DNA from: Gemmatimonadota bacterium
GTDB taxonomy: Bacteria > Gemmatimonadota > Gemmatimonadetes > Longimicrobiales > Gaopeijiaceae
NCBI GenBank assembly: GCA_007124095.1
Contig: SLFU01000026.1
Location: forward strand, 1 to 34,458
Length of the DNA stretch: 34,458 nucleotides
Direction: 5' to 3'
In this document: piece after piece, positions 5,168 to 23,908 of the stretch
How the letters are laid out: each line of letters starts with the position of its first letter
Numbering within the stretch: position 1 is the stretch's first letter
Translations under genes and position numbers: made by a program
The notes under the pieces: model-generated
Seen by the model: the letters and a program-made list of their open reading frames with translations, nothing else
Databases searched by the model: none
What the model was told of the DNA's origin: nothing

Positions 5168-6793
5168 TCAGGAGGGGCGGGAATTTCTGGAAAGAAGCGA
5201 GTGGATGGGGGTTGCGACCCCCAGCGCCATCGTGGCCAGGAGATATACCCCTAGGAAGGGGACGAGCGTTCCCGCGGCTTCGATCCAGGGGTGCGTCGGG
5301 GGGAGAAGGAGGTGGGCCCCGGCTCCAACCCCGGCCGCCAGTGACGCGCACAGGGCCATTCGCAGGAGCGTGCCCCGGCTCACGCCATGTGCGCCGATCG
5401 TACCCCCGAGGGCCCGACGCAGGAGAAAGAGCTCTATCCAGGCGGCACAGCTCGCCCCAAGAGCCAGTCCCGCAGCACCCAGCCCGAGGGGGCCGATCGA
5501 GATCCGGTCCAGGGGGAACATGAGGGCGAGTCCGACGAGGAGGGAGAGGGTGACTCGCACATAGGCCAGTCGTGCGGGTGTACGCGTGTCCCGCAGGGCA
5601 TAGAAGGCGGAGGAGAGGAGGCGGGAGATCGCGGACGCCGGCATCCCCAGTGCGTACGCGGCAAGTACCGCCCAGGTCACGAGCACCTCCGCCAACCCGA
5701 AGGCGCCGGTCTGATAGAGTGCGGCCACGATTACATCCCCCAGCACGAGGAATGCCAGGGCCGAGGGGATCAGGAAGTAGGCGACCCGCTCCATTCCTAT
5801 CCCGACATTCCGACTCAACCCGTCGAGCGCCGCTCCCCGGCGGCGAGAAAGCTCCGGGAGTTCGGAGGCGGCCACGGACATGCCGAAAAGAGAGATCGGG
5901 AGGACGTAGAGAGTCTGCGCGTATCCCAGAGAAGCCACGGCACCCGTGGCCAGAAAGGCCGCCAGAGCGTAGTCCAGCCACCCGCTGAGGTTCACCGCTC
6001 CGCGAGCCATCAGCACCGGCGTGAAATTCCGGATTGCCTCACGGACTCCGAAGACCTCCACGGACAGAGCCGGACGGAATTCCCCCAGGAGGCGCAGGGC
6101 CAACGGAAGCTGGATCAACAGCTGGAGCGCGCCCCCGACGAGGGCTCCCCACGCCATTCCCCGCACGAGCGCCTCCCCGGAAAGCCCCAAGCCTAGGGCG
6201 CCTCCCACGAGCGCGATGATCATTGCGGCGTTCCAGACCACGGGTGCCACGTAGGGGAGGAAGAAGCGTCGGTGCGAGTTGAGGATTCCGAGCGCCCATG
6301 CCGAAACGACGAGGAGGGCAGTCATCGGAAAGAGAACCCTGACCAGGGCGATCGTGAGCGCCTGACGCTCCGGGTCGAACCCTGCGAAGAGCACTCTGAC
6401 CAGGACGGGGGCGAGAAGGATCCCCAGAAAGGCGAGAACTCCAGCCGCCAAGGTCAGAAGTCCAAAGATGGCGCCCGCGAAGCGCGCGGCCTCTTCCTCG
6501 CGGTCCTCCTCCAGGAGCTCGGAGTAGATCGGGATGAAGGAGGCGGAAAGCGTGCCCTCCCCCAGAAGATTCTGGAGCACGTTCGGCATCCGGAGCGCGG
6601 CACGCCAGGCATCGGCGAAGGGGGAAGCGCCGAAGTAGTGCGCAAACACACGCTCCCGGACCAGCCCCGTGAGGCGGCTGAGGAGGATCCCCGTGCCCAC
6701 CTGGAGGGAGGCCCGGGATCGCGTCGATGGATCGGGCGGCTCGGGCGGGTCCCCCGCCGGGTCCCGGGAGCGATCGGGCGGCGGCGCGTTCAC
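5168..6793 (-). CDS. murJ: Lipid II flippase MurJ
   Basis: MurJ moves lipid-linked peptidoglycan precursor across the inner membrane. The 541-residue product has a proline-rich cytoplasmic N-terminus of about 30 residues. A MATE-like succession of hydrophobic helices follows, about 14 as in the family. The first helix region has the family pattern LSRLTGLVRERVFAHYFG, and RMPNVLQNLLGEGTLSASF comes after it. The start is a GTG whose GTGA overlaps the bshC stop codon by four bases, showing tight coupling. Position between bshC and uvrC is unusual for the gene, but it fits the envelope theme of the operon. Confidence 0.95.
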   Translation of the reverse strand: MNAPPPDRSRDPAGDPPEPPDPSTRSRASLQVGTGILLSRLTGLVRERVFAHYFGASPFADAWRAALRMPNVLQNLLGEGTLSASFIPIYSELLEEDREEEAARFAGAIFGLLTLAAGVLAFLGILLAPVLVRVLFAGFDPERQALTIALVRVLFPMTALLVVSAWALGILNSHRRFFLPYVAPVVWNAAMIIALVGGALGLGLSGEALVRGMAWGALVGGALQLLIQLPLALRLLGEFRPALSVEVFGVREAIRNFTPVLMARGAVNLSGWLDYALAAFLATGAVASLGYAQTLYVLPISLFGMSVAASELPELSRRRGAALDGLSRNVGIGMERVAYFLIPSALAFLVLGDVIVAALYQTGAFGLAEVLVTWAVLAAYALGMPASAISRLLSSAFYALRDTRTPARLAYVRVTLSLLVGLALMFPLDRISIGPLGLGAAGLALGASCAAWIELFLLRRALGGTIGAHGVSRGTLLRMALCASLAAGVGAGAHLLLPPTHPWIEAAGTLVPFLGVYLLATMALGVATPIHSLLSRNSRPS

Positions 6794-8382
6794 TTCGGAA
6801 GGACGGCGTCGCGGGCTCTCTCTTCCACCTGTTCGAGAAACTCTTCGCCGTACCGGAAGAGATAGTAGAAGGGATTGAGCACTCTCTCCTGGGGTCGGCC
6901 GAGCGGAAAGAGGTGGAGCTGCGCCTTCTCCACCTGGGCCAGGGTGATCTCGTTCTCACGCTTCAGTGAGTGAACGACCTTCCGCTCCACATCGTCGAGG
7001 AGCCCCATCCCCTGCTTCCGGAAATTCTCGACGGGCCCCTTGAGGGTCGGGTCGAGCGCAGCGGCAGCTGTCCTGAGCTTCCCTCCTCCCTTTCCGATCG
7101 CTTGCCGGAGAGCGTTCAGGGAAGACTTCACATCCTCCGGGATATCGTCTCGGACCAGATCCCCCGCCACCTCGTGGTGCGGGCGTGCCATGGTCTCCAT
7201 ATCCAGCCCGAACTTCTCCATGACCTTGCCCACCTTCGTCTCCTGTATGGCGAGCGAAACCCTGGGGTGGACGATCGGCCGCTCTACGCCGTGGCCCCTG
7301 AACACAGGGATCGTCTGCGGGAGATAGGCCACTTCCCCGGGGCCCGCCACGTAGGCCACAGTCGGAAGAAGTGCGCTCTCGATGACGGGACGAAGGAGGA
7401 CGTTCGGGCTCAGGACCGAAGGGTCGCCTTCGGCCCGATCCTGGATCTCCCGGAGGGTCAATCGCTCACCGGAGCCCCTCAGACGAAAGGCGCCTCCGTC
7501 CCGGAAGATCCTCTCTCTCCCGTTCGCCCCCTCCAGAAAGACGTTGGTCGCATCGTCGAAGAGGGGAACCTGGAGTTCGTATCCCGCGCTTCCCAACTCC
7601 CCAGCCGTCTCCTTCAGCTCCCCCTCTCGCAGCTCGCTCTCCTCCAGCTCCCGAAGGAGCATTGGCAGCGACCGGGCCTTTAGATCCGTCGCGTGAGCCT
7701 GCACGAGAAACACTCCCGCAGGTCCCAGCAGGGCCTCCCACACCCGCTGAAATCCCTCTGCAAGCGTCGCTCCCGACGGGTAGCTCTCCTTGAGCACGGC
7801 GGTCCACCGTGGCGAGAAGTCGGTCTCCGGGTGGAGGGCGAGGAACTGGTCGAGCGCTTCCTCCAGCTCGGATCCAAGCGCGATGCGGTGGATCGGACGG
7901 GCCGGCTCCGAGCTTCTGGGAGGGAGGGCGATCTCCCCGAGGTCGTTGGTCGGGCTCAGCACGTGAGTGCGTCGGACCTCTTCCCAGTCGTGGTCCTCCG
8001 AAGCGATCCAGAAGACAGGAAGTACAGGACGAGCGAGGCGTGCTTCGAGGCTCCGGGCGAGCCAGGCAATCGTAAGCCCCTTGTAGAGGCCATAAAGGGG
8101 TCCGCCGAATAGTCCGGGTTGCTGTCCGGTCGTCACGAGGAGCCCCGCTCGCGAGACGAACTCCTCCAATCGTTTCTTCCCGCCCTCTCCTCCACCCAGC
8201 AGATGGCCGGCCACCCTGCGTCGCGCATCCTCACCGATGCGGGAATCCACCTCCCGGGCCTTGGCCTCATAACTGTCCAGCTCCCCCGGAGCTCCGGGGA
8301 AGAACCGGAGGGCCTCCGGATCGTCCTTGAGCCACGCCTGAACGAGGGGGGCACCGGATAGGGGACGGGATTCGATCCTCAA
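6790..8382 (-). CDS. bshC: Bacillithiol biosynthesis cysteine-adding enzyme BshC
   Basis: BshC adds L-cysteine to GlcN-malate in the last step of bacillithiol synthesis, a low-molecular-weight thiol used for redox balance. Diagnostic family motifs are visible: TTGQQPGLFGG at 84-94, followed by GLYKGLT and then ASEDHDW near 127-133. The C-terminal part is rich in charged helix and is likely the coiled-coil dimer region. The 530-residue length is close to the family norm. It begins with TTG, supported by AAGGA seven bases upstream. The partners bshA and bshB are not in this window. The stop codon overlaps the GTG of murJ. Confidence 0.93.
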   Translation of the reverse strand: MRIESRPLSGAPLVQAWLKDDPEALRFFPGAPGELDSYEAKAREVDSRIGEDARRRVAGHLLGGGEGGKKRLEEFVSRAGLLVTTGQQPGLFGGPLYGLYKGLTIAWLARSLEARLARPVLPVFWIASEDHDWEEVRRTHVLSPTNDLGEIALPPRSSEPARPIHRIALGSELEEALDQFLALHPETDFSPRWTAVLKESYPSGATLAEGFQRVWEALLGPAGVFLVQAHATDLKARSLPMLLRELEESELREGELKETAGELGSAGYELQVPLFDDATNVFLEGANGRERIFRDGGAFRLRGSGERLTLREIQDRAEGDPSVLSPNVLLRPVIESALLPTVAYVAGPGEVAYLPQTIPVFRGHGVERPIVHPRVSLAIQETKVGKVMEKFGLDMETMARPHHEVAGDLVRDDIPEDVKSSLNALRQAIGKGGGKLRTAAAALDPTLKGPVENFRKQGMGLLDDVERKVVHSLKRENEITLAQVEKAQLHLFPLGRPQERVLNPFYYLFRYGEEFLEQVEERARDAVLPK

Positions 8383-9220: not shown

Positions 9221-9699
9221 AGGCCTCCCCCCTTGTGGTAGGGCTCGTTTCGGAGAAGGGTGCCCGCACGATACAGTTGCTCCATGAGGAGGAGTCGCGC
9301 CAGATCGTGAGGCAGCGTCATCCTGGAAAGGGAAATTCGCCGCTGGGCCTCGTCCAGGAGAGTCCGCTCCAGCCCAAAGGCGCCGCCCAGGAGAAAAGCG
9401 ATCGGCCCCCCTCCATGGAGAGTTCGATCGTGCAGCTCGTTCGTCAACGCCTCCGAGGTCAGTCCCATCCCGGTTCGGGTCAGAGCCCAGCGCTCGCCGC
9501 CCTGGGGAACCCGCTCGGTAATCCGCGTCCCTTCGGCCGTGCGAACCGCTTCCGCACTGCGGTCCCCACCTCGTTTCAGTCCGGCATCGACCTCGAGTAT
9601 CTCCAGCTTCCAGTACCGGCTCGCCCGCTCCTCGAACTCCCGGACAGCCGGCTCCAGCGGGCCCCGGAGCTTTCCAACGACGACGACGTAGACCTTCAT
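9217..9699 (-). CDS. rlmH: 23S rRNA pseudouridine-1915 N3-methyltransferase RlmH
   Basis: RlmH is a SPOUT-class enzyme that methylates pseudouridine 1915 in helix 69 of 23S rRNA on assembled ribosomes. The 160-residue product matches the family length. It shows the conserved FLLGGAFGL segment near 102-110 and SLSRMTLPHDLARLLLMEQLYRA near 123-145, with a C-terminal NEPYHK. The family usually has GGADGL rather than GGAFGL. The start at 9699 (MKVYVVVVG) is chosen because it gives the canonical N-terminus and its ATGA overlaps the lpxK stop by four bases. Confidence 0.95.
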   Translation of the reverse strand: MKVYVVVVGKLRGPLEPAVREFEERASRYWKLEILEVDAGLKRGGDRSAEAVRTAEGTRITERVPQGGERWALTRTGMGLTSEALTNELHDRTLHGGGPIAFLLGGAFGLERTLLDEAQRRISLSRMTLPHDLARLLLMEQLYRAGTLLRNEPYHKGGGL

Positions 9700-10724
9700 G
9701 CTTTCTCCCGCTCCGCTGCCTTGCGACCGAGCCGGGAGAGAATCCACTGTCCGAGCCCCTCGGGGGGAGCCGGCGTGAGAGGCAGGACCCGAGTCTCGGG
9801 GAGCTGCTCCCGGAACGCAATCAGCTTCACCGCATCCTTCTCAGTCGTAGCGATCCAACGCCCTCCAGACTCTCGACGGATGTGGCGCAGGTCGGCGGGC
9901 CCGTACTCGTAGTGATCACGGAATGTTAGGAGGCTAGGAGCCGAGCCATCGACTCGATCCGTCACCAGCCGAAGAAACCCTTCCGGCTCGGCCACGGAGG
10001 CGACGGCCAAAGGGGGACCCGCCGGTCGATTCGCCGGAGTGCCATCCAGTGTCTGCCAGCGCCCGACTTCGAAGGGGAAAAGTGCAATTCGTCGTCCCAC
10101 ACCCATCTGAGACAGAGCCTCGACCATCGCGCGAGCTGGGGTCAACTGTGCTGGTCCTTTTGCCGTCACGAGTACGAGATCGGCCCGGGAGAGTGACCCC
10201 ATGGGCTCCCGCAACGGCCCGCGAGGAAGGAGTCGCGACGAGAGCGGATGGCTCGGGGAAATGAGCACGAGATCCAGGTCTCGCGCGAGGGCCCGATGTT
10301 GGAACCCGTCGTCCACCACGACCACGTCCCGGCCGATCCGGACCGCCTCCCGAACCCCGTCGATTCGTCGGGGAGCCCGGAGGACCGGAACCTCAGGATT
10401 CCACCGCCGGTGGAGGAGGATCTCGTCTTCCCCGTAAGCCCTCGTCACGAGCGCTGGACTCCAGCCCGCGTCCGCCAAGGTGGTCACCAGCCAACTCGAG
10501 ATCGGGGTCTTCCCCGTCCCGCCGACAGCGAGGTTACCGACCGAGACGACCGGAATGGACCCGGAGTGCACGGGAAGCAGGGCTCGGTCGTAGAGCCCGT
10601 TTCGAACGGCGGCCCCGGCCCTGAAGAGGAGCGAAGGGGGGAGCGTCAGCCCTGCCAGGAATCGCGGCAACGCCCCCTGCTCTCCTCGCCACATCCGACG
10701 CAATTCCCTCGTGAGCCGGCTCAC
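9696..10724 (-). CDS. lpxK: Tetraacyldisaccharide 4'-kinase LpxK
   Basis: LpxK phosphorylates the 4' position of the lipid A disaccharide using ATP at the inner membrane. The 342-residue protein has a hydrophobic N-terminal helix and then VSVGNLAVGGTGKTP (about 60-74), which holds the Walker A motif and is typical of LpxK. VVVDDGFQHRAL follows, the family signature around the Walker B acidic pair. The start is GTG, with GTGA overlapping the upstream DUF374 stop. Together with lpxB and lpxA nearby it completes much of the first part of the Raetz pathway in one operon. Confidence 0.95.
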   Translation of the reverse strand: MSRLTRELRRMWRGEQGALPRFLAGLTLPPSLLFRAGAAVRNGLYDRALLPVHSGSIPVVSVGNLAVGGTGKTPISSWLVTTLADAGWSPALVTRAYGEDEILLHRRWNPEVPVLRAPRRIDGVREAVRIGRDVVVVDDGFQHRALARDLDLVLISPSHPLSSRLLPRGPLREPMGSLSRADLVLVTAKGPAQLTPARAMVEALSQMGVGRRIALFPFEVGRWQTLDGTPANRPAGPPLAVASVAEPEGFLRLVTDRVDGSAPSLLTFRDHYEYGPADLRHIRRESGGRWIATTEKDAVKLIAFREQLPETRVLPLTPAPPEGLGQWILSRLGRKAAEREKA

Positions 10725-11428
10725 CGCGATCCTCCCCCTTCCATCCCGGCATCCGAGCCCGAGCGTTCGCCCACCTCGGTCGCCTCCTGCTCGTGCCCGT
10801 ACGCTGCATCCGTGAGTCGATCCAGCACCGCCTCGAGAACCCCCGCATGGTGCTTCAGCTCCTCCCGGCTCGCCTCCCGCGGGATCCGGTACGGTGCACC
10901 GTAGATTACCCGGAATCGGGCGAAGGGCTTGGGGATGACCATGCGGTCCCAGGAGTTCACACGCCAGGACCCCTTTCCCCCAGCGGCGAGGGGAATGATG
11001 GGAGCCCCCGTGAGCTGCGCTGCCAGGAGAGCGCCCGGCTTGAACTTCCGAGCGGGTCCCCGCGAGCCGTCCGGGGTGATCGCCACCTCCCCGCCCCTCC
11101 GGATGGTGCGAACCAAAGCCCGGAGTCCGGAAGCCCCGCCTCGGTTCGCGGATCCTCGGACCAACTGAAAACCCATGCGCCGGATCACGCGGGCGATGTA
11201 CTCTCCGTCGCGGTTCCGGCTCACAAGCACTGTGAACCCCTGGTTCCGGTGGAAGTAGGCCAGAGGGAGGATGCCGCTGTGCCAGAATGCAAGGATGAAG
11301 GGGTGTCTAGACCGGCGCAGTTCCTCGAGGGGTTCGCGGCCCTCCACAGTGAAGCGGAGAGATGCGCCCAGGCCCCTGAGGACTCCAGTGCCCAGGATCT
11401 CGAGGGCCCGTGCCTCGAAGTTCCTCAT
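10721..11428 (-). CDS. DUF374-family lysophospholipid acyltransferase-like protein
   Basis: The 235-residue product shows features of the DUF374 branch of the LPLAT acyltransferases. FILAFWHSGILPLAY near 44-58 contains the presumed catalytic His50. SRNRDGEYIARVIRRMG comes next, and ITPDGSRGP at 117-125 is very characteristic. The family is thought to add an acyl chain to a lipid acceptor at the inner membrane. Lying between lpxB and lpxK, it may act as a late lipid A acyltransferase in place of LpxL/LpxM. That role is inference from position; no LpxL-like gene is present in the window. It overlaps lpxB and lpxK by four bases each. Confidence 0.88.
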   Translation of the reverse strand: MRNFEARALEILGTGVLRGLGASLRFTVEGREPLEELRRSRHPFILAFWHSGILPLAYFHRNQGFTVLVSRNRDGEYIARVIRRMGFQLVRGSANRGGASGLRALVRTIRRGGEVAITPDGSRGPARKFKPGALLAAQLTGAPIIPLAAGGKGSWRVNSWDRMVIPKPFARFRVIYGAPYRIPREASREELKHHAGVLEAVLDRLTDAAYGHEQEATEVGERSGSDAGMEGGGSR

Positions 11429-12555
11429 GCCCCTGCATCCCGATCGAGAACCTCGTCCACGAGTTGGACGACGCGTTCGGCGGCACCCGGTTCACCCAGG
11501 CGCTCTCTCACGGTCCCCAGGCCCGTCACTGCAGCGGAGCGCTGTGGTGTGTCGCCCAGGAATGGTTCGAGGGCCTCGGCCAATGCCACGGGAGTGACCT
11601 CTCCCTGTAGAAGCTCCGGGACCACCCGGGAGCCCGCAACCAGATTCGCGAGAGCCACGTGATCCACCTGCACCAACCGTCGAGCCAGGAAATACGTGAG
11701 CGGATGCGTACGGTAGGCGACCACGAAAGGCGTGCCCTCGAGAGCGGCCTCCAGTGTCGTGGTTCCGGACTTCACGATGGCGGCCCTTGCATGGCGGAGC
11801 AGGCTGCGTCCATCCGAAACGAGCGAGATCCCCGGATCATCTGGGAGGTCCACGCGGAGACTTCCCGCCCTCGCCACCGCGAGCTGCAGACCTGGATGCC
11901 GTGACCGGAGACGGCGCCCGGCCTCGAGGAAGAGCTGGAGGTGCCTCTCGATCTCCTGGGCTCTCGAGCCGGGAAAGAGCGCCAGGATCGGTCGGCCCGC
12001 ATCCAGCCCGTGTCGATGACAGAAGGTGGACCGGTTCACGGAGGGTGCGTCCTCGCTCAGGAGAGGGTGTCCGACGAACACCGCATGTCCTCCCTCCCGC
12101 CGAAACAGCTCCTCCTCGAATGGAAGGATCACCGCGATCCGATCAGCCATCCGGGCGAGACGGGCCGCCCTCCCTGCCTTCCACGCCCAGACCTGCGGAG
12201 CGATGTAATATACGATGGGAATGTTCTTCTCGTGGGCCCGTCTGGTCATCCGAAGGTTGAATCCGGGATAGTCGACGGGTATCACGAGATCCACAGCCTC
12301 CTCGCTGAGGACGCGGTCGAGGCGGCGCTCCAACCTGAGAAAGAACGGGAGCCGGAGCACGACCTCCGCGAATCCCATCACAGCGAGATCATCCAGGTGG
12401 GCGAGAAGCTCCACCCCTTGCCCTGCCATCCGGTCTCCTCCGGTCCCGAGAAGCCGACACCCCGGCCACCGAGCCCGGAGCGCCCTGGCGACTTGGGCAG
12501 CGTGGAGGTCGCCGGAAGGCTCTCCGGCCAGGATGAGGAACCTGGGCCGGTTCAC
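11425..12555 (-). CDS. lpxB: Lipid-A-disaccharide synthase LpxB
   Basis: LpxB joins lipid X and UDP-2,3-diacylglucosamine to form the beta-1,6 lipid A disaccharide. The 376-residue GT-B-fold glycosyltransferase starts with LILAGEPSGDLHAA, the standard LpxB N-terminal signature. It continues with GTGGDRMAGQGVELL and DLAVMGFAEV. Further on are YYIAPQVWAWK and the C-terminal KSGTTTLEAAL donor-binding motif, all diagnostic. The start is GTG with a weak ribosome site, 13 bases after a small membrane ORF. The enzyme that makes lipid X (LpxH, LpxI or LpxG) is not encoded in the window. Confidence 0.97.
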   Translation of the reverse strand: MNRPRFLILAGEPSGDLHAAQVARALRARWPGCRLLGTGGDRMAGQGVELLAHLDDLAVMGFAEVVLRLPFFLRLERRLDRVLSEEAVDLVIPVDYPGFNLRMTRRAHEKNIPIVYYIAPQVWAWKAGRAARLARMADRIAVILPFEEELFRREGGHAVFVGHPLLSEDAPSVNRSTFCHRHGLDAGRPILALFPGSRAQEIERHLQLFLEAGRRLRSRHPGLQLAVARAGSLRVDLPDDPGISLVSDGRSLLRHARAAIVKSGTTTLEAALEGTPFVVAYRTHPLTYFLARRLVQVDHVALANLVAGSRVVPELLQGEVTPVALAEALEPFLGDTPQRSAAVTGLGTVRERLGEPGAAERVVQLVDEVLDRDAGA

Positions 12556-12568
12556 GGGTCGTCCCGGA

Positions 12569-12703
12569 TCAGAATCTGGTGGCTAGGAACCAGACGAGCA
12601 CACCTACGAAGATGAGCAGGAAGACGAGCACCCGGGTCGAGCGCCCCTTCCGGACATCGATCCAATGTTTTTTTCGGTCACGACGAACGCGTATCAGCGA
12701 CAT
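12569..12703 (-). CDS. Small 44-residue single-pass membrane protein (hypothetical)
   Basis: This short frame encodes 44 residues. An Arg/Lys-rich N-terminal half (MSLIRVRRDRKKHW...) is followed by one clear hydrophobic segment at about 25-41 (VLVFLLIFVGVLVWFLA) and a short ATRF tail. The layout suggests one membrane helix with a cytoplasmic basic N-terminus by the positive-inside rule. It fills most of the otherwise empty gap between the Gfo/Idh gene and lpxB, and its first 26 bases overlap the end of the Gfo/Idh gene in another frame. No good ribosome site is seen, so expression would depend on coupling. I do not recognise the family. It could be a chance frame, but the amphipathic design and exact fit in the gap argue for a real gene. 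Confidence 0.55.
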   Translation of the reverse strand: MSLIRVRRDRKKHWIDVRKGRSTRVLVFLLIFVGVLVWFLATRF

Positions 12704-13709
12704 GGCTCATGATCCGGGCTTCGATGGCAAGAGCCGTGGCGAGCGCATCCCGACCTTCGCGCGCCGACACCGCCGGCAGAGTGCCATCCAGGATGGAGTC
12801 GCGGAAGCTTTCGAGCTCCCTGCGAAGAGGCTCGGTCGGCTCCGCGGTGAGCGGGACCGTCTCCACGATCGATTCGAGATCCGGGGCCAGCCGTCCAGAT
12901 GAGGCGTCGGCACCGGAAAGTGCTTGGAGGGCTGGAAGGTCCTGTTTGAGTCGCAGGTACTTCCCGGTACCCTCCGCGAGGTTGAGACTAAGATAGCCGG
13001 AACGCTGGAAGATCCGTAGCTTCCGCAACCTCTCAGTCGAGACCCGACTTGCGGTGAGGTTTGCGACCGCACCGTTCTCGAAGGTGAGCCGGGCATTGGC
13101 GATGTCCACCGACTCGGTGAGAATTGGGACCCCTGTGGCCTGGATGTCTTGGATCGGCCCTCCCACCAGGCTGGCCACCAGATCCACGTCGTGGATCATG
13201 AGATCCAGGACCACTGCGACATCGGTGCCCCGCTCGGTGAAGGGGGCGAGACGGTGCGATTCGATGAAAAGGGGGCTGTCGAGGAAGGGGCTTGCCCCGA
13301 TCAGGGCCGCGTTGAAGCGCTCCACATGCCCTACCTGAACCACGGCCCCGGAAGTCCCGGCGGCGGTGAGGATCTGATCGGCCTCCTCGAGGGTCGATGC
13401 GATCGGCTTTTCGATGAAGACGTGAACCCCTCGCTCGAGCGCGGCGGATGCCACTGCCGCGTGTGTCTTCGTCGGGCTGGCCACCACCACCCCGTCGACC
13501 GCGCCGAGGAGGGCCTCGAGAGATGGAAAGGCGTGGATGTCCAGTTCCGCGCTCACCTCCTTCGCACGGTCGGCCTCCGGGTCGAAGAACCCCATCATCC
13601 GGACGTCGGCAAGCTCGCGGGCGATACGTGCGTGATGGAACCCGAGACTTCCGACTCCGGCCACACCGAGCCGCAGGACTCTCCCGTTCGTTCCCGTCGT
13701 CGTGCCCAT
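12678..13709 (-). CDS. Gfo/Idh/MocA-family oxidoreductase, GnnA-like
   Basis: The 343-residue protein has an N-terminal Rossmann fold with GVAGVGSLG near 15-23. It also has the EKP motif at 100-102, typical of NAD(P)-dependent Gfo/Idh/MocA dehydrogenases, and LMIHDVD near 170-176 in the catalytic domain. Its place directly after lpxA and before lpxB resembles loci encoding GnnA. GnnA oxidises the 3-hydroxyl of UDP-GlcNAc so that the aminotransferase GnnB can make UDP-GlcNAc3N for amide-linked lipid A. No aminotransferase is present in this window, so GnnA function is inference. Gfo/Idh genes of untested role also occur at this place in other phyla. The ATG is joined to the lpxA stop as TAATG. 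Confidence 0.85.
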   Translation of the reverse strand: MGTTTGTNGRVLRLGVAGVGSLGFHHARIARELADVRMMGFFDPEADRAKEVSAELDIHAFPSLEALLGAVDGVVVASPTKTHAAVASAALERGVHVFIEKPIASTLEEADQILTAAGTSGAVVQVGHVERFNAALIGASPFLDSPLFIESHRLAPFTERGTDVAVVLDLMIHDVDLVASLVGGPIQDIQATGVPILTESVDIANARLTFENGAVANLTASRVSTERLRKLRIFQRSGYLSLNLAEGTGKYLRLKQDLPALQALSGADASSGRLAPDLESIVETVPLTAEPTEPLRRELESFRDSILDGTLPAVSAREGRDALATALAIEARIMSHVADTRSS

Positions 13710-14491
13710 TAGAAGGTGATTCCTCGTTCCGAGCTCTGGATGAAGTCCAGGAAGTGCCTCACTTCCGGCAGCAGGTCTACTTCGGTCCGGGCCCGAGCCA
13801 GCGCCTGAGAGACGTTGAGGCTCGATTGAAAGAGGATCCGGTAGGCCTGTTTGAGCGCCCCTCGGGTCTCGGGCGAGAAGCCTCGCCTTTCAAGCCCGAG
13901 TGAGTTGAGCCCGTAGATCTTCGGCGGGCTCCCGGCAACCCGGCAGTAAGGGACCACGTCCTTCGAAATGCGCGAGCCCCCGCCTACGAAAGCATGGGCG
14001 CCGACCTTGACGAACTGGTGAATCGGAGTGAGTCCCCCGACGATGACCCAGTCTTCGATCTCGACATGCCCGGCCATGTTCACCGCGTTCGAGAGGACCA
14101 CCCGATTCCCCAGCCGGCAGTCATGCGCCACATGGGTGTATGCCATCAGGAGGCAATCGTCCCCCACCTCAGTCCATCCGGAGGCTGAGGTGCCTCGGTT
14201 GAGCGTGGCGTATTCCCGGATGATCGTCCGGTCACCGACGCGCAGGTGGGTCTCCTCCCCAGCGAACTTGAGGTCCTGGGGATCGGTGCCCAGCACAGCC
14301 CCCTTGTGAATGATGCACCCCTGGCCCACGGTCGTGTTTCGTTCGACGAGGACGCCGGGCCCCACCTTGGTCCCGGATCCGATTCGCACTCCCGGGCCGA
14401 TGATCGACCATGGACCGATCGTCACGCCGGGATCGAGCTCCGCGTTCGGATCCACGATCGCTTGCGGATGCACCTCCACGGGATCAACCAT
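13709..14491 (-). CDS. lpxA: UDP-N-acetylglucosamine acyltransferase LpxA
   Basis: LpxA transfers a hydroxyacyl chain from ACP to the 3 position of UDP-GlcNAc, the first step of lipid A synthesis. The 260-residue protein is a left-handed beta-helix built of hexapeptide repeats. His120 and His123 (AYTHVAHDC) correspond to E. coli His122 and catalytic His125. Lys75, His142, His158 and Arg202 align with E. coli Lys76, His144, His160 and Arg204. Gly171 aligns with E. coli Gly173, the chain-length ruler, which would permit a long chain. The residue aligned with E. coli Glu200 is Leu198. The start at 14491 has GGAGG about eight bases upstream and gives the normal LpxA N-terminus. Confidence 0.96.
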   Translation of the reverse strand: MVDPVEVHPQAIVDPNAELDPGVTIGPWSIIGPGVRIGSGTKVGPGVLVERNTTVGQGCIIHKGAVLGTDPQDLKFAGEETHLRVGDRTIIREYATLNRGTSASGWTEVGDDCLLMAYTHVAHDCRLGNRVVLSNAVNMAGHVEIEDWVIVGGLTPIHQFVKVGAHAFVGGGSRISKDVVPYCRVAGSPPKIYGLNSLGLERRGFSPETRGALKQAYRILFQSSLNVSQALARARTEVDLLPEVRHFLDFIQSSERGITF

Positions 14492-14514
14492 CTTCACGTC
14501 CTCCCCGGAGGGGC

Positions 14515-15807
14515 TCACCGATCCATGATCCGTGCCAGGAACTGCGCCTCCGCCACGAGATTGCCATCCACGTACCCCATTCCTTTCATCTTGCATACGG
14601 TCTTTCGACGTTGGACCAACTCCAGCTCGAAGACAAGCTGGTCACCCGGTGTGACCGGACGCCGCCACTTCACGTTATCGAGAGACATGAAGTAGACGAC
14701 CTTGTCCTCGGGATTGTCGATCGAGTCCATGAGGAGGAGACCTCCCACCTGGGCCATCGCCTCGATGATGAGGACGCCCGGCATGATTGGGTGCCCGGGA
14801 TAGTGGCCCTGGAAAAAGGGCTCGTTGATCGTGACGTTCTTGATTCCGACGATCCTCTTTCCACGCTCGAAGTCCACCACCCGATCCACCAAGAGCATGG
14901 GAAACCGGTGTGGGAGGTATTGCAAGATCCTCTGAGTGTCCACGATCGGATCCCCCGCAGGATTTCTGCGCGCTTCGCGGGCCATTGCCCGGGCAAGTCG
15001 AACATTTCCGCGATGGCTTGGGCGTTCGGCCACTATGTGCGCCTTGATCCGGGTCCCGAGGAGGCCCAGATCCCCCACCATGTCTCCCACCTTGTGGCGG
15101 AGGAACTCATCGTGAAATCGGAGATCCTCATTCAAGATGCCTTTCTTTCCGAGCACGATGGTATTTTCCAGGGAGCTGCCGCGGGCGAGCCCCTGGTCCC
15201 GAAGTCGATCGGCCTCCTCCTCGAATCCGAAGGTCCGGGCGGGTGCGATCTCGGAGGCAAAGCAGCCATCGTCCAACAGGAAAGAGCCGTATTGACGGCC
15301 GATGGACGGGTGCTCGAAGTCGATCGTCGCGGAAATTCTGAAGTCCTCCGACGGGGTGGCTATGTATCTCGAGCCCTGGTCCCCTTCAACCGTCAGGGGC
15401 CCGGGGAGTCGGAGGACGGGAACCTCCCCGTCCAGCTCCTCGACGCCCGCCCGTTGAAGGGCCGTAAGGTATTCCTGGAAGCTCCCATCGAGGATCGGGG
15501 GCTCGGGACCGGCGAGGTCGATCACGACCCGGGTAATCCCGAGCACGGTGAGGGCCGCCATCACGTGCTCGACCGTCATGACCCTCACCTCGTCGTCCAC
15601 GGCCAGGCTGGTGCCCAACTCAGTGCCCACTACATGGTCGAGGTCCGCCGGAATCTCCGGGCTACCCTCCAGATCGGTCCTCCGGAAGCGAATCCCCTGG
15701 CCCGTCGGATCGGGGCGGAAGGTGAGGGTCGTCTCCTCGCCGGAATGGACACCCACACCCGAAAGGGACACAGCTTGCCCGAGAGTTCGATGCATCGTTC
15801 CGTTCAT
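14515..15807 (-). CDS. lpxC/fabZ: Bifunctional LpxC deacetylase / FabZ dehydratase fusion
   Basis: This 430-residue protein fuses two enzymes. Residues 1 to about 270 are LpxC, the zinc deacetylase that commits UDP-3-acyl-GlcNAc to lipid A. Visible residues are Glu80-His81 (VEHVMAAL), His238 and Asp242 (RHKVGD) as zinc ligands, and His265 (SHRGN) as the catalytic histidine. A short linker leads to FabZ from about 285, the hydroxyacyl-ACP dehydratase of fatty acid synthesis. It has LPHRFPMLLVDR, catalytic His335 in QGHYPGHPIMPG, and Glu349. Such fusions are known in Bacteroidota and relatives. The ribosome site GGGGAGG is only about two bases from this ATG, while a second ATG at 15795 is about 14 bases away, so the exact start is uncertain. 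Confidence 0.96.
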   Translation of the reverse strand: MNGTMHRTLGQAVSLSGVGVHSGEETTLTFRPDPTGQGIRFRRTDLEGSPEIPADLDHVVGTELGTSLAVDDEVRVMTVEHVMAALTVLGITRVVIDLAGPEPPILDGSFQEYLTALQRAGVEELDGEVPVLRLPGPLTVEGDQGSRYIATPSEDFRISATIDFEHPSIGRQYGSFLLDDGCFASEIAPARTFGFEEEADRLRDQGLARGSSLENTIVLGKKGILNEDLRFHDEFLRHKVGDMVGDLGLLGTRIKAHIVAERPSHRGNVRLARAMAREARRNPAGDPIVDTQRILQYLPHRFPMLLVDRVVDFERGKRIVGIKNVTINEPFFQGHYPGHPIMPGVLIIEAMAQVGGLLLMDSIDNPEDKVVYFMSLDNVKWRRPVTPGDQLVFELELVQRRKTVCKMKGMGYVDGNLVAEAQFLARIMDR

Positions 15808-15916: not shown

Positions 15917-15948
15917 GTGAGGCTGATCCGCGGTGAGGCTAATCCGCT
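15917..15948. repeat. Tandem 16-bp imperfect repeat across the lpxD stop codon
   Basis: Two adjacent 16-base copies (15917-15932 and 15933-15948) differ at two positions: GTGAGGCTGATCCGCG and GTGAGGCTAATCCGCT. The second copy contains the lpxD stop codon. In the minus-strand direction the duplicated unit lies just beyond the stop. It looks like a simple slippage duplication at the gene end. Confidence 0.6.
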
Positions 15949-17024
15949 TGGGGCGGCCCATCCTCTTCGAGGAGCCGGGCCAGCTCCCCCTCGAGGCGGC
16001 GTACTCGCTTCAGCAGCTCCGGCACCCGTCCCTGGGCCGCGGTCGCTCTGAGGAACTCAGTCCGGTCGCGCGCGGGAAATCCCATCACCGTCGCGCCTGG
16101 CGGGATGTCTCCCGTGACCCCCGCCTGACCGGCGAGGCGCGCCCCCCTTCCAATCGTGACATGGCCTGCGATGCCCGCCTGCCCCCCAACCATCACTCCT
16201 CCCTCGATCCGCGTTGACCCTCCGACCCCGGCCTGGCCGGCCAGAATCGAGTGGGGACCGACCGTCACGTTGTGGCCGACCTGGACCAGGTTGTCCAGCT
16301 TCCCCCCCTGACCGACCCGCGTATCTCCGATCGACCCTCGATCGACCGTCGTGTTCGCTCCAACTTCCACATCGTTCCCCAGCTCACACCCTCCGATATG
16401 GGGAATTTTCCTATACGCCCCTTCCTGGTAGACGTATCCGAATCCGTCCACTCCGATCCTGGCCCCCGCATGCACGATCACGCGGTCGCCAAGGACTGTC
16501 CCGGGGTAAAGGACCACGTGCGGATGCAGGGTCGAGTCCTCTCCGATTCGACTGTCCCGCCCCACCACCGCGTGGGCCCCGATCGAGCATCCCGCGCCGA
16601 CGACCACCCCGTCTTCGAGGACGGCGTAGGGAGCGACTCTGACCTCGTCCCCCAACTGAACCTGGTCTCCGATAATGGCCGTGGGATGCACTTCGGCGGG
16701 TTCCGCTTCGGTGGGATGGAACGCCTCGAGGAGGACGGCCAGTGATCGGTGGGCGTCCTCCACGACGAGACGGGGCCGTTCATCCCCCCCGAGATGCGCC
16801 TCCATCTCGCTGGATACGAGTAGAGCGCCCGCGTCACTCTTCTCCAGATCGACCAGGTACCGACGGTGAGCCAGAAATCCGAGCTCTCGAGGGCCTGCCC
16901 CGGAAAGGGGGGCGATCCCCCGGATCTCCAGCTCGGAGGCCGGAGGGGGGACGTCGAGCAGGCTGGCGAGTGCGGAGAGGGCCTGGGGTGTGGCCTGCGA
17001 GCGGCGTCTCGGGAAGCTGGTCAT
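15939..17024 (-). CDS. lpxD: UDP-3-O-acylglucosamine N-acyltransferase LpxD
   Basis: LpxD adds the second hydroxyacyl chain, at the 2-amino group of UDP-3-acyl-glucosamine. The 361-residue protein has the expected N-terminal uridine-binding domain (residues about 15-108). A long left-handed beta-helix of hexapeptide repeats follows from about 112. DNLVQVGHNV contains His251, equivalent to the catalytic His239 of E. coli LpxD. A C-terminal helix (about 335-355) packs the trimer. ATG at 17024 is preferred over a TTG 27 bases upstream that falls just after the terminator T-run. Neither has a clear Shine-Dalgarno, which is notable for the first gene after a terminator. Confidence 0.95.
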   Translation of the reverse strand: MTSFPRRRSQATPQALSALASLLDVPPPASELEIRGIAPLSGAGPRELGFLAHRRYLVDLEKSDAGALLVSSEMEAHLGGDERPRLVVEDAHRSLAVLLEAFHPTEAEPAEVHPTAIIGDQVQLGDEVRVAPYAVLEDGVVVGAGCSIGAHAVVGRDSRIGEDSTLHPHVVLYPGTVLGDRVIVHAGARIGVDGFGYVYQEGAYRKIPHIGGCELGNDVEVGANTTVDRGSIGDTRVGQGGKLDNLVQVGHNVTVGPHSILAGQAGVGGSTRIEGGVMVGGQAGIAGHVTIGRGARLAGQAGVTGDIPPGATVMGFPARDRTEFLRATAAQGRVPELLKRVRRLEGELARLLEEDGPPQAD

Positions 17025-17044
17025 GGTATCTGATTCGGGTAATT

Positions 17045-17096
17045 GAAACAAAAGCGGACCTCCGCTCCGGCTCGAGAAACCCGGAGCGGAGGTCCG
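17045..17096 (-). terminator. Rho-independent terminator or attenuator between ompH and lpxD
   Basis: Positions 17055-17070 and 17081-17096 are a perfect 16-base inverted repeat with a ten-base loop. On the minus strand the stem is followed by CTTTTGTTT, a typical T-rich tail. It lies after ompH and only about 20 bases before the lpxD ATG. It should stop or weaken transcription coming from bamA-ompH. A promoter between it and lpxD would have no room, so partial read-through or regulated attenuation is possible. Confidence 0.85.
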
Positions 17097-17122: not shown

Positions 17123-17169
17123 TAGTGTGGTGAGTCAGACATTCGGCGAGGTCCTGATTCACCACACTA
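17123..17169. repeat. 11-bp perfect inverted repeat starting at the ompH stop codon
   Basis: TAGTGTGGTGA at 17123-17133 and its exact complement at 17159-17169 enclose 25 bases. On the minus strand the first arm begins with the TAG stop codon of ompH. The long loop makes it a weaker hairpin than the terminator that follows 26 bases downstream. It may protect the ompH mRNA 3' end; no other role is evident. Confidence 0.6.
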
Positions 17170-17691
17170 CATTTCTCCGGCCATCTGCTGGAGCCTCTGG
17201 ATGACCTCCATCGTGAGATCCAGGGAGGGGTCGGCGGCGATGATGGACTGACCTGCCACGTCGAAGATCACGGAGTATTCCCCTTCGGACCGGATTTCCT
17301 CGATCGCGGCGGACATCCGGCTCAGGATCGGTTGAACGAGTTCCTCACGGCGCTGGGCAGCCTCCTGCTCCATCTCGTCCAATCTCTGTTGGTACTGGAT
17401 CTCTCGCTGGCGAATCTCGGTCTCGCGAGTCTCCCGGGCCTCGTCCGTCAGCGTCCCCTGCTGCTGCTGGTAGGCCGTGATGAGGCTATCCAGCTCCTGG
17501 CCCATCGCCTCGATCTCCTGGCCGAACGACTCCATCTGCTGATCGAACTGCTGCTGCGCCTCGGAGGCTCCTGGAGCCTCCTGGAGGATTGCCTGCGAGT
17601 CGATATATGCGATTCGAAGCTCCTGCTGTGCCTCCACTGCCGCAGGGCCGAAGGCAAACAGACCGAGTAAGGCCACCATGAGTGAACGCAT
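17167..17691 (-). CDS. skp: OmpH/Skp-family periplasmic chaperone
   Basis: The 174-residue product has a signal peptide (residues 1-21, hydrophobic core, likely cleavage after VEA). A short beta segment follows with IAYIDSQAILQEAPG, the typical OmpH start. Residues about 42-125 are a long Gln/Glu-rich coiled coil, the tentacle helices of Skp. A C-terminal beta segment EYSVIFDVAGQSIIAADPSLDLT closes the trimer body. Skp holds unfolded outer-membrane proteins in the periplasm and passes them to BamA, which is encoded just upstream. The ribosome-site-like AGGAG is about 13 bases from the ATG, longer than usual. A terminator follows the gene. Confidence 0.93.
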   Translation of the reverse strand: MRSLMVALLGLFAFGPAAVEAQQELRIAYIDSQAILQEAPGASEAQQQFDQQMESFGQEIEAMGQELDSLITAYQQQQGTLTDEARETRETEIRQREIQYQQRLDEMEQEAAQRREELVQPILSRMSAAIEEIRSEGEYSVIFDVAGQSIIAADPSLDLTMEVIQRLQQMAGEM

Positions 17692-17760: not shown

Positions 17761-20241
17761 TCAGAACGGCTGATTCCCACCCATCCGGAAATGGAGCTGC
17801 CAACCGGGAACATCTTTGTCGAATCCGTACGCGTAGTCCAGCCCCAGAGGACCGAAGGGGGTCACGATCTCGAATCCGAGCCCGGCACCCCGGAACATTC
17901 TGGATGGATCAATCTCACGGGGATGACGCCACACGTTTCCGGCCTCGTAGAAGGCTGACATCGAGATCATGTCGGAGAGGCGGAATGCCAGCTCGGCCGT
18001 CGTGGACAGAAAGGTGTTCCCCAACCGTTCGACATCCGTGATCTGCCCCGAGCCACGCGAAAAATACCCGGCGGGGGTGAGGGTGGTCTCCTCGTACCCC
18101 CGCAACCTCTCTCCAAACTGCACTCCCCCGAGCCAGAAGCTCTCGAAGGGGAAATCCTCGGCGTCCCCGAAGATGGTTCCTCCTCGGGCGCCGAGCCCCA
18201 AGGCGATTGTCATGGGGCGGGATCCGGGCTCGGTCCCACCGATGGTCCCGACGGGAACCCACCATTTTCCGCTCACCGTGTGCTTCGTGAAGTTCCCGTC
18301 GCCACCGAAGATCCCTCCGTTGAACTCGGCGGTCCAGCCCTGCTCCGATCCCACGGTCGGGAAGAGCGGGTGATCGATGGTCCTGCGGGTAATTCCCGTG
18401 CTCACCTGGCTCTGGACCCCGGCCGGGCGCCCGAAGAGTGAGGCGTCGTCCGCTCCACCCCGCAACCGGTAGTCGGTCCGGGAGAGGGAGTAACCCACAA
18501 ACACTCTGGAATAGAGGGAGCCGGGAACCGGGATGCCGAAGCGAGTGGAAACCCCCCTCAGCTTCCGCTCTCCCGTTGCGAAGGAGAAGAATCGGTCTCG
18601 GGAGTCGAAGAGGGAGACCGAGCCGCTCACCCGGGACTCGAAGAGGGAAGGATCGGTGTAGCTCAACGAGAAGTTGTTCTGATAGCGCCCGAAGTCCCAG
18701 CGGAAGCTGCCCGACTTCGCCTGTCCGAAGAGGTTCGGCTGATCGTAGCCGATGAAGCCGGAAACCCCTGTCGCCCCACCCATGCTGCTTCCGAAGTTGA
18801 TCGAGCCCGTACGCTGCTCCTCGACCCGGAAGATGATGTCCACGTCCCCGGTCTGTTCGTCAGGCTGAATGTCGGGGAGTGGGAGGGGGCTCTCAAAGAA
18901 TCCGAGTCCCGAGATTCCCTGGTAGCTCCGAAGGATTCGCTGCTCCGAGTAAACGTCCCCGGGAAGGATCGCAATCCGCTCGCGGATCACCCGGTCATGG
19001 GTGAACTCGTTTCCCTCGATCCGAATTCGACGGACGTAAGCCGGTTGTCCCTCCTGGATGTTCCATCTGGCGGACACGACCGGGGAGCCGTTTTCCGCCT
19101 CATCCGGGAGCCGCTCGATCTCCGGTGACACCTGGGCGTAGAGATAGCCTTCGTTCCGATACAGCTCTCCAACCCGCTGGGTTGCCTCCATGAACGCGGT
19201 TCGGTCGAACACTGGGGCTGCGCTCTCGTCGTTCGGGCTGGACCGAAAGCCAAGGGAGCGGAGTAGGCCTCCCTCCTCGATCCGGTAATACGCCTCGAGA
19301 TCCTGGGTTGCGAATCGGCGGTTTCCATCGACCGAAAAGTCGGCGAGCCGATACTGCGGGCCCTCCGAGACATCGACCTCGAGCCGGGCCTTCCCAGACG
19401 ATTGATCGACGATCAGGGTGTCGCCCAGCACCTCGAAATCCAGATACCCCTGGGAGGCGTAGAACTCGGGCAATCGCTCCCCGAGGTCCTCTTGGAGCAC
19501 GTCCCCATTGAAAATCCCGGAACGGAACCACAAGAACCCCTCCCGGCGAGTGGACATGACGCTCCGGAGCTCCGAGTCACGGAAAGACTCATTCCCGTTG
19601 AACACCACCTCGGCAACCGCGACCCGATGGCCTTCCTGTACTTCGAGGATCAGATCAATCTCTCCGGTGCGCCCTTCCACAGGAACCCTTCGAACCTCAA
19701 CCTGAGCGAAGGGCACTCCCTTTTCGGCCAGACCGTCGCGGATGACCCGCTGGGCGAGAAATACCCGCTGCGGGGAGTAGGGCTGTCCCGAGGGGACCTC
19801 GACCTCGTCCCAGATCTCCCGGCTGCTCATCGTCTGGAGCCCCTCGATGTCCACCGATCGAACGATGGGATGCTCCTCGACTCTGAAGGTCAGGACGATC
19901 GGCTGCCCGTTACCCCCTCGGACGGTCACCTGGACGTCCTCGAACCATCCGGTCTCCCACAACCGCTTCTCGGCCGTCTGGATTTCGCGGTAACCGATCG
20001 GTTGTCCCGTGGGCACTCCAATCGACCCGAGGAGGGCCGCCTCGGCCACGTGGTGGTTGCCCTCCACGCGGACGGAGTCCACGACTACCCCTCCCAGATC
20101 GGACGGTACCGGCTCCGTCGGCGCGGGCTCGGTGACCTGACCCGCGCCGGAGGCCGGAAGACCCCAGAGCCCCCCCAGGAGGACCAGGACCGCGAGGAAG
20201 GTCTTGGCCAGACACGGGCGGAGACAAGGCAAATAGGACAT
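17761..20241 (-). CDS. bamA: Outer-membrane protein assembly factor BamA
   Basis: BamA is the central Omp85 protein that inserts beta-barrel proteins into the outer membrane. The 826-residue precursor has a signal peptide of about 33 residues. Successive POTRA domains follow, apparently five, for example VVVDSVRVEGNHHVAEAAL at the first and YVRRIRIEGNEFTHDRVIRE at the last. From about residue 450 there is a C-terminal barrel beginning INFGSSMGGATGVSGFIGY. The protein ends in Phe after an aromatic-alternating strand, the usual beta-signal. It begins five bases after the clpC stop without a clear ribosome site, so it is likely coupled to clpC, an unexpected partner. Confidence 0.97.
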   Translation of the reverse strand: MSYLPCLRPCLAKTFLAVLVLLGGLWGLPASGAGQVTEPAPTEPVPSDLGGVVVDSVRVEGNHHVAEAALLGSIGVPTGQPIGYREIQTAEKRLWETGWFEDVQVTVRGGNGQPIVLTFRVEEHPIVRSVDIEGLQTMSSREIWDEVEVPSGQPYSPQRVFLAQRVIRDGLAEKGVPFAQVEVRRVPVEGRTGEIDLILEVQEGHRVAVAEVVFNGNESFRDSELRSVMSTRREGFLWFRSGIFNGDVLQEDLGERLPEFYASQGYLDFEVLGDTLIVDQSSGKARLEVDVSEGPQYRLADFSVDGNRRFATQDLEAYYRIEEGGLLRSLGFRSSPNDESAAPVFDRTAFMEATQRVGELYRNEGYLYAQVSPEIERLPDEAENGSPVVSARWNIQEGQPAYVRRIRIEGNEFTHDRVIRERIAILPGDVYSEQRILRSYQGISGLGFFESPLPLPDIQPDEQTGDVDIIFRVEEQRTGSINFGSSMGGATGVSGFIGYDQPNLFGQAKSGSFRWDFGRYQNNFSLSYTDPSLFESRVSGSVSLFDSRDRFFSFATGERKLRGVSTRFGIPVPGSLYSRVFVGYSLSRTDYRLRGGADDASLFGRPAGVQSQVSTGITRRTIDHPLFPTVGSEQGWTAEFNGGIFGGDGNFTKHTVSGKWWVPVGTIGGTEPGSRPMTIALGLGARGGTIFGDAEDFPFESFWLGGVQFGERLRGYEETTLTPAGYFSRGSGQITDVERLGNTFLSTTAELAFRLSDMISMSAFYEAGNVWRHPREIDPSRMFRGAGLGFEIVTPFGPLGLDYAYGFDKDVPGWQLHFRMGGNQPF

Positions 20242-20246
20242 GAAGA

Positions 20247-22745
20247 TCAGGTCTTCGTAGCGGATGCTTCTCTGAGAGTGAGGCGGTCCCGGTCCGGGGC
20301 CAGGTCCACTTCGATCTCAGCCCCCGCCCCGAATTGGGCCACCAGGATCTTCTCGGAGAGCGGATCCTCGAGGTACCGCTGTATGGCTCTTCGCAGCGGG
20401 CGGGCTCCGAACTTCTGGTCATACCCCTTTTCCACCAGAAAGGCGAGGGCGTCATCGGTGATCTTGAGGGTGAGCTCCTCCTCCTCGAGTCGCTTCCGAA
20501 CATCCCTGAGGAGAATGTGGACGATCTCACCGATCTGCTCCCGAGTGAGGGGGTGGAAGACGATGGTATCGTCGATCCGGTTCAGAAATTCCGGATTGAA
20601 GGCTCGCTCAATCTCCTCACGGACCTTGTCCTTCATCACCTCATAGCTCGACTGCGGATCGGTCGTGTGGAATCCGAGTCCCCCTCCCTTCGTAATGTCC
20701 CGGGCGCCCAGGTTGGAGGTCATGATGAGGACGGTGTTCTTGAAATCGATCACTCGCCCATAGTTGTCGGTGAGGTGGCCCTCATCGAGCACCTGGAGGA
20801 GAATATTGAACACATCGGGGTGCGCCTTCTCGATCTCGTCCAGGAGCACGACCGAGTAAGGCCTGCGGCGTACTGCCTTCGTGAGGGCACCGGAGTCCTC
20901 GTAGCCGACGTATCCCGGAGGCGCTCCGATAAGGCGCGACACGGAGAACTTTTCCATGTACTCGCTCATGTCGACCCTGATCAGGGCGTCCGAGTCGGCA
21001 AAGAGGAACTCCGCCAGCGCCCTCGCCAGCTCGGTCTTCCCGACCCCAGTGGGTCCGGAGAAGATGAACGACCCGATCGGCCTGCGCGGATCCTTGAGTC
21101 CGGCCCGACTCCTCCGGATCGCCCGGGAGATCGCCTCGATCGCGTCATCCTGTCCCACGACCCGCTTGTGCAACTCCTCCTCCATGTTGACCAGCCGGTC
21201 GGTCTCCGCCTGCCGGAGCTTGGTCACGGGGATCCCGGTCCACCGAGAAACGATGAAGGCCACCTCCTCGGGGGAGATTTCCGGTCGGTTCTCCTTCCGC
21301 TCGGCCTCCCACTCGTCCTGACGGGCCTTGATCCGGTGCTGGACATCTCGCTCCTCATCCCTGAGCTCGGCGGCTCGCTCGAAGTCCTGATCGCGGATGG
21401 CCTCCTCCTTACGATCGGCGATTCCGCCCAACTCCACGTTGAGCTCCTCCATGTCGGGCGGGGGAACCTGTGACGCGATTCGCGCCCGGGCCCCGGCCTC
21501 GTCGATGACGTCGATCGCCTTGTCCGGAAGGAACCGGTCGGTGATGTAGCGGTCGGAAAGCTTTGACGCGGCATCGAGAGTGTCGTCGGGAATGACCACC
21601 CGATGGTGATCCTCGTAGTGGGTGCGGAGGCCCTTGAGGATCTCCACAGTTTCCCCCACCGCGGGAGGGTCCACGATAACGGGCTGGAAGCGCCGCTCGA
21701 GAGCGCCATCCTTCTCGATGTACTTCCGGTACTCGTTCAGGGTGGAGGCTCCGATGCACTGGAGCTCGCCACGGGCGAGAGCCGGCTTGAGCATGTTGGA
21801 AGCGTCGATCGCTCCCTCCGCGGCCCCCGCGCCGACCAGGGTGTGGAGCTCGTCGATGAAGAGCACGACATTCTTGTTCTGCGAAATCTCGTTCATGACA
21901 GCCTTCAGGCGTTCCTCGAACTGGCCCCGGTACTTCGTTCCCGCAATTACCGCGGCCATATCGAGCGCGAGGACCCGGTGGTCCTTCAACGCCTCCGTCA
22001 CCTCACCCTTCGAGATCAACTGAGCCAAACCCTCGACGATTGCGGTCTTGCCCACCCCCGGCTCCCCAATGAGGACCGGGTTGTTCTTCTTGCGGCGGCA
22101 GAGGATCTCGATGACCCGATCGATCTCGTCCTTGCGTCCGATGGTCGGATCCAGCTTCCCCTGAGTCGCGAGGTCCGTGAGATCCCGGCAGAAGTGGTCC
22201 AGGGCCGGTGTCTTCGACTTCTTGTCACCCTTCCCTCCCCCGGTGGGAGTCGAGGAGGAGCCACCTCCGATTCCGGCCGGCTCGCCTCCTCCCCCTCCCC
22301 CACTCATCTCCGACCCCAAAACCTTCAACGTCTCGGCGCGGGCATCTTCGAGGCTGATGTCCAGGGAGTTCAGGACCTGTGCGGCGATCCCCTTCTCTTC
22401 CCTCAAGAGGCCGAGGAGTAGGTGTTCGGTCCCCACATACGAATGGTTGAGCTCTCTCGCCTCGGCCATGGCGAACTCCAGGACCTTCTTGGCACGCGAG
22501 GTATAGGGGAGCTCGCCGAGGGCGATCGTGGCCTTCCCCTTCTTCACGGATTCCTCGATCCGCTCATGGACCTGATCGAGATCCGCGCTCAGGTTCGTGA
22601 GGACGGCTGCGGCTACGCCTTCTCCCTCCCGGATCAGTCCCAGGAGAATGTGTTCGGTCCCCACGTAGTCGTGCTGAAGGCGGATGGCTTCGTCTCGGGC
22701 CATTGCCAGCACCTTTCGGACTCGATCGGTGAAGTTGTAGTTCAT
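20247..22745 (-). CDS. clpC: ClpC-type AAA+ unfoldase
   Basis: ClpC unfolds substrates and feeds them to ClpP. The 832-residue protein has two N-terminal Clp repeats containing YVGTEH at 28-33 and 103-108. Glu31 and Glu107 match the phosphoarginine-docking glutamates Glu32 and Glu106 of B. subtilis ClpC. A glycine-rich linker is followed by the first AAA+ domain (Walker A GEPGVGKT). A middle region with a UVR motif ([16 protein letters not shown]) comes next, then the second AAA+ domain (GPTGVGKTE). The ATG at 22745 has GAGGG five bases upstream; a TTG 12 bases earlier would overlap this site and is rejected. mcsA and mcsB lie directly upstream. No CtsR repressor gene or obvious CtsR box is seen. 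Confidence 0.97.
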
Positions 22746-22775
22746 TGCTGCCCTCAAAGGGGATGGGGTCGGCGA

Positions 22776-23906: not shown

Positions 23907-23908
23907 CG

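Follow-up and report, generated by a model that had tools for sequence, protein, structure and literature searches.

Mesorhizobium loti, a reference organism for lipid A built on GlcN3N, carries gnnA and gnnB at unlinked positions (PMC5644692). Most lipid A of Legionella is built on GlcN3N, to which the chains are amide-linked (PMC7867332). The GnnA protein of Acidithiobacillus ferrooxidans has been crystallised and is represented in the Protein Data Bank by entry 7bvj, titled UDP-N-acetylglucosamine 3-dehydrogenase GnnA. A gammaproteobacterial sample was searched with a fragment of 7bvj, and the 30 best loci were inspected to define GnnB by context. In most of these loci a DegT gene followed gnnA, often in the order lpxA-gnnA-gnnB or gnnA-gnnB-lpxB. 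Genes for KDO2-lipid A synthesis are reported to be common in Gemmatimonadota in several habitats (PMC11651109); no lipid A structure from this phylum was found in the literature searched.

A stretch of 34,458 nucleotides (the window), which is one contig of a Gemmatimonadota genome assembly (2.83 Mb, 242 contigs, 95.8% complete), was characterized. Its minus strand carries genes in the order bamA - skp - lpxD - lpxC-fabZ - lpxA - gnnA - 44-aa ORF - lpxB - DUF374 acyltransferase - lpxK:

9696-10724, minus strand: lpxK (TIGR00682, 119 bits; PF02606, 209 bits)
10721-11428, minus strand: operon gene for a DUF374 / lysophospholipid-acyltransferase-like protein (PF04028, 96 bits)
11425-12555, minus strand: lpxB, lipid-A-disaccharide synthase (TIGR00215, 290 bits; cut-off 190)
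12569-12703, minus strand: conserved unannotated ORF for a 44-aa single-TM peptide, MSLIRVRRDRKKHWIDVRKGRSTRVLVFLLIFVGVLVWFLATRF; it overlaps gnnA at that gene's 3' end and lies shortly before lpxB
12678-13709, minus strand: gnnA, predicted NAD(P)-dependent Gfo/Idh/MocA UDP-GlcNAc 3-dehydrogenase (sequence, tree, motifs, model)
13709-14596, minus strand: lpxA, acyl-ACP--UDP-GlcNAc O-acyltransferase (PRK05289, 353 bits, cut-off 226; TIGR01852, 329 bits)
14515-15807, minus strand: lpxC-fabZ fusion (PRK13188, 489 bits; cut-off 465)
15939-17051, minus strand: lpxD (TIGR01853, 323 bits)
17167-17691, minus strand: skp/ompH, upstream envelope gene (PF03938)
17761-20241, minus strand: bamA, upstream envelope gene (TIGR03303, 405 bits)

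The preliminary description had placed a Gfo/Idh gene between lpxA and lpxB with a TAATG junction. This arrangement was confirmed: the ORF is real and encodes a 343-aa protein that matches Pfam GFO_IDH_MocA with 97 bits, family models identify its neighbours as lpxA and lpxB, and the stop codon of lpxA (TAA) and the start codon of gnnA (ATG) have one A in common. The true start of lpxA is probably Met36, at about 14491. The 122 nt between gnnA and lpxB hold most of the 44-codon ORF. Profile search of the scanned window proteins and reading of the translations by eye revealed no aminotransferase in the window, in agreement with the earlier statement that none lies alongside gnnA. Given the DegT gene that follows gnnA in gammaproteobacterial loci, the window operon therefore corresponds to that order minus gnnB. 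Because gnnA and gnnB of M. loti are reported to be unlinked (PMC5644692), the lack of gnnB from the operon is in itself unremarkable. A search of the genome gave no LpxI; several metallophosphoesterases are present, among which there may be an LpxH or LpxG. The minus strand of the window also carries a gene for BshC, the bacillithiol cysteine-adding enzyme (6790-8382; PF10079, 244 bits), and, directly upstream of bamA at 20247-24197, genes for a ClpC-like ATPase with a UVR motif and an ATP:guanido phosphotransferase (McsB-like). This McsB/ClpC pair is firmicute-like, yet is found here in a diderm.

Sequence, fold and phylogeny make it very probable that the product of 12678-13709 is GnnA, an enzyme already known from lipid A synthesis. 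Among all PDB chains its best match was 7bvj/7bvk (E 2.9e-55, 191 bits), the next match scoring 62 bits (5e-16). An AlphaFold model of the enzyme (pLDDT 91.6, pTM 0.88) also had 7bvj as its top fold match, with an E value of 2.6e-34 and a TM-score to the target of 0.91-0.95, as compared with 5e-23 for the runner-up. The assignment to the GnnA family made in the preliminary description is thus borne out by both the closest sequence and the closest fold. E100-K101-P102, which includes the catalytic Lys, and the D169 and H173 of an Asp-x3-His motif were invariant across 24 aligned members. A quick phylogenetic tree joined the window enzyme to the GnnAs encoded in lpxA-gnnA-gnnB operons, to Legionella GnnA and to GnnAs from many other phyla, and separated it from the Gfo proteins that Gemmatimonadota encode in polysaccharide clusters (96% SH-aLRT); a position far from GnnA, which the preliminary description had named as evidence against its proposal, was not what the tree gave. 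Within the GnnA tree, Gemmatimonadota form a branch of their own outside the gammaproteobacterial one. The best NCBIfam match of the window enzyme, NF040723 (archaeal UDP-GlcNAc 3-dehydrogenase), reached 181 bits, below the cut-off of 450. Since the operon-canonical GnnA (149 bits) and the Legionella GnnA (206 bits) also fall below this cut-off, the archaeal model cannot serve to delimit GnnA in bacteria.

When 200 genomes were sampled across the phylum, 169 of them proved to carry a gnnA orthologue. Wherever loci were inspected, gnnA followed lpxA and preceded lpxB, with a single exception (G001) in which gnnA-lpxB stands apart from lpxA; recurrence on this scale indicates that the lpxA-gnnA-lpxB arrangement is not due to chance. 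The same operon is found in named relatives labelled Gemmatimonadota. In 14 relatives from the same family that lack gnnA, lpxA directly adjoins lpxB and the remaining operon is intact. In a tree of LpxC-FabZ, LpxA and LpxB, 13 of these relatives make up a single clade and the remaining one is an outlier; one further clade without gnnA lies outside the family. Comparison of LpxA from relatives with and without gnnA and from E. coli revealed differences that follow clade, and none of the residues known to govern the choice between GlcNAc and GlcNAc3N stood out. Three genomes of genus g68, of the same class (G120, G125, G176), had no match to lpxA, gnnA or P0001, the aminotransferase described below; in this genus the pathway to lipid A may have been lost.

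The 44-codon ORF encodes a basic, single-TM peptide with the consensus MSLIRvRr.RK..wiD..kG..p..L..ll..v...iWyLg..F. The family has 38 distinct versions of it, 43-46 aa long, and these occur in operons with and without gnnA alike. Outside the gnnA overlap, pN was lower than pS in 584 of 595 pairs, a signal of purifying selection, and no Pfam or NCBIfam family matched above chance. The peptide is a candidate new membrane protein of the lpx operon.

A search of the genome assembly for DegT/DnrJ/EryC1 aminotransferases returned two strong DegT proteins, P0001 and P0002, of which P0001 is a strong GnnB candidate. P0001 (G000:C156:4731-5870, outside the window; PF01041, 351 bits) carries the PLP lysine motif SFFPTKNLG, as read from its sequence. 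Its nearest solved relatives are 7b0d, DesV, QdtB and WbpE; 4-aminotransferases score far lower. DesV, QdtB and WbpE are 3-aminotransferases that use 3-keto sugars. P0001 was 42-49% identical to the gnnB products of gammaproteobacterial lpxA-gnnA-gnnB loci and outscored P0002 at every such locus. P0002, which is LegC/perosamine-like (4-keto class) and adjoins genes for an ABC transporter and a glycosyltransferase, was rejected as GnnB.

The P0001 gene lies in the order TPR - P0001 - bamD - nadD (BamD, 131 bits against a cut-off of 81). Inspection of the closest family members with gnnA showed this TPR-gnnB-bamD-nadD order in most of them; in genus g2 and in G161 the P0001 homologue is located elsewhere. 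In 13 family members lacking gnnA, TPR and bamD are kept at this locus, as is nadD where the contig reaches it, and gnnB is gone from its place. One genome without gnnA (G154) has a DegT homologue a few kb off the syntenic place, beside a nucleotide-sugar dehydrogenase gene. An independent-pairs test of gnnA/gnnB co-loss found three gnnA changes in all on the LpxC-FabZ/LpxA/LpxB tree. With so few changes the paired absence is not independent statistical evidence, and it goes back to no more than one or two events in evolution. The preliminary description had offered two alternatives. That gnnB lies elsewhere in the genome, with amide-linked lipid A as the predicted outcome, is supported by a DegT protein of 3-keto-sugar type encoded beside bamD, which related genera without gnnA lack as well. 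That the enzyme has an undescribed job in lipid A synthesis gained no support in this genome and is not needed there.

The arrangement in Legionella offers a parallel. In L. bononiensis (L211) and L. adelaidensis (NZ_LR134421), gnnA overlaps lpxB and no gnnB is nearby. L. bononiensis has a single DegT close to P0001 (L261, 4395-5507). Its gene directly follows lapB, which encodes LPS assembly protein B, and in the DegT tree it forms a pair with WbpE. This DegT is likely to be the unlinked GnnB of Legionella.

We propose that GnnA, in keeping with its family, uses NAD+ to oxidise UDP-GlcNAc at the 3-OH, giving the 3-keto sugar, and that an aminotransferase encoded elsewhere, most likely P0001, would add an amino group to yield UDP-GlcNAc3N. 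LpxA would then acylate the 3-amino group, and LpxC, LpxD, LpxB and LpxK would continue the pathway, so that at least part of the lipid A would carry amide-linked chains at position 3. The data show the identity of the gene, its place in the operon, the presence of both genes and their joint absence in a related clade; the two catalytic steps, the partnership of the enzymes and the lipid A chemistry are predictions. We consider it probable that the unlinked pair serves amide-linked lipid A in this way, by a known route with split genes.

The phylogeny of P0001 does not coincide with that of operon-encoded GnnB. In the DegT tree the homologues of families f1 to f5 and f9, except those of g2 and G161, cluster with one another, within a group to which WbpE belongs as well. 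P0001 lies outside the GnnB clade of the lpxA-gnnA-gnnB operons: gammaproteobacterial GnnBs form their own clade (99%) and P0001 stands in a neighbouring group, nearer to WbpE with weak support (84%). P0001 may work like GnnB without belonging to the canonical GnnB clade. In families f4 and f5 its homologue is clustered with genes for a WbpD-like acetyltransferase, another Gfo protein and nucleotide-sugar dehydrogenases (L058, L060-L062, L252, L254, L259), and in f5 the homologue in such a polysaccharide cluster is sometimes still followed by bamD-nadD. Both the tree position and these WbpE-like settings count against the proposed pathway. They are what would be seen if the product of GnnA and P0001 fed a surface polysaccharide (UDP-GlcNAc3NAcA made in the manner of WbpB/WbpE, or similar), with ordinary lipid A and an operon position of gnnA that reflects co-regulation only. 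We regard this as improbable, since P0001 of the window's genome has no such flanking genes and a profile search of the assembly found no second Gfo/Idh/MocA enzyme. Moreover, it is gnnA and not a polysaccharide Gfo gene that is locked between lpxA and lpxB phylum-wide, and gnnA adjoins lpx genes in other phyla as well. One other weak Gfo hit in the assembly (26.9 bits) reads as a Rex-type regulator/repressor and was set aside.

The f4 and f5 clusters suggest a common origin of the GnnB candidate and a 3-amino-uronate pathway. In the simplest history, the aminotransferase of a 3-amino-uronate cluster would act for GnnA as well, and nothing of the cluster but this enzyme would have remained in the window's family. 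It is conceivable, if rather unlikely, that in Gemmatimonadota such a WbpE-side enzyme takes the place of the canonical GnnB lineage, its polysaccharide partners having been lost in the window's family, where it was kept only for GnnA, and that genus g52 dispenses even with that enzyme, its GnnA relying on some aminotransferase not yet recognised or acting in a manner so far undescribed.

When a match at 1e-60 was taken as a close DegT, 154 of the 200 genomes had both gnnA and a P0001-like DegT, 15 had gnnA only, 13 had the DegT only and 18, among them those of g68, had neither, a table that is blurred because in f4/f5 and in G154 the DegTs are found within or close to WbpE-like settings. The exceptions in both directions count against the pathway proposed above. 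Eight of the 15 genomes with gnnA only belong to genus g52 (including G042/G163; L108, L109), in which gnnA is intact between lpxA and lpxB and the best DegT hits to P0001 are at about 1e-35; another is G006 (L110), which is 99% complete and likewise has gnnA in the operon. In these genomes GnnA does indeed lack a visible GnnB. If the pathway runs in g52, another aminotransferase must therefore be possible, and GnnA could likewise make UDP-GlcNAc3N in the window's organism with P0002 or an unrelated PLP enzyme, P0001 serving something else. This is very improbable, as P0002 belongs to the 4-keto class with transporter and glycosyltransferase genes beside it, and the related clade that lacks gnnA lacks P0001 too. 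That GnnA acts without transamination, 3-keto-UDP-GlcNAc or a derived epimer itself entering lipid A synthesis or regulating flux, would accommodate the g52 genomes and G006 but is scarcely credible, as we know of no LpxA that acylates a 3-keto sugar, the window's genome does encode a suitable aminotransferase, and gammaproteobacterial relatives pair gnnA with gnnB.

We conclude that the locus most likely represents known chemistry with a split gene order, in which GnnA would act with a partner encoded in trans. If this is true, most of an under-studied phylum, as represented by the 169 gnnA-bearing genomes in the sample of 200, is predicted to make amide-linked lipid A. It would also follow that a gnnA with no gnnB next to it gives little reason to expect a new function; the partner gene can adjoin bamD, as here, or, seemingly, lapB, as in Legionella. 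The clade without both genes provides a natural comparison for the role of GlcN3N in the membrane.

Several known systems resemble this one in part. P0001 belongs to the same group of 3-keto-sugar aminotransferases as WbpE and WlbC, which act on UDP-3-keto-GlcNAcA, but it lacks WbpA-, WbpB- or WbpD-like neighbours, and its genome yielded no second Gfo enzyme. M. loti MAFF303099 (PMC5644692) likewise has gnnA separate from gnnB, whereas gnnA of the window sits inside the lpx operon. The Legionella loci share with the window a gnnA placed by lpxB without gnnB and one close DegT elsewhere beside an LPS-assembly gene, in a genus with GlcN3N lipid A (PMC7867332); they differ in that they come from another phylum and in that their DegT pairs with WbpE, its GnnB role being proposed here, with no publication of it found. 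The A. ferrooxidans GnnA (7bvj/7bvk) shares with the window enzyme its fold, about 36% identity and the EKP and D-x3-H motifs. In close relatives of the 7bvj protein gnnA is immediately 3' of lpxA, as in the window, but is directly followed by gnnB; in the window the 44-aa ORF and lpxB come next, and the aminotransferase is encoded at an unlinked locus.
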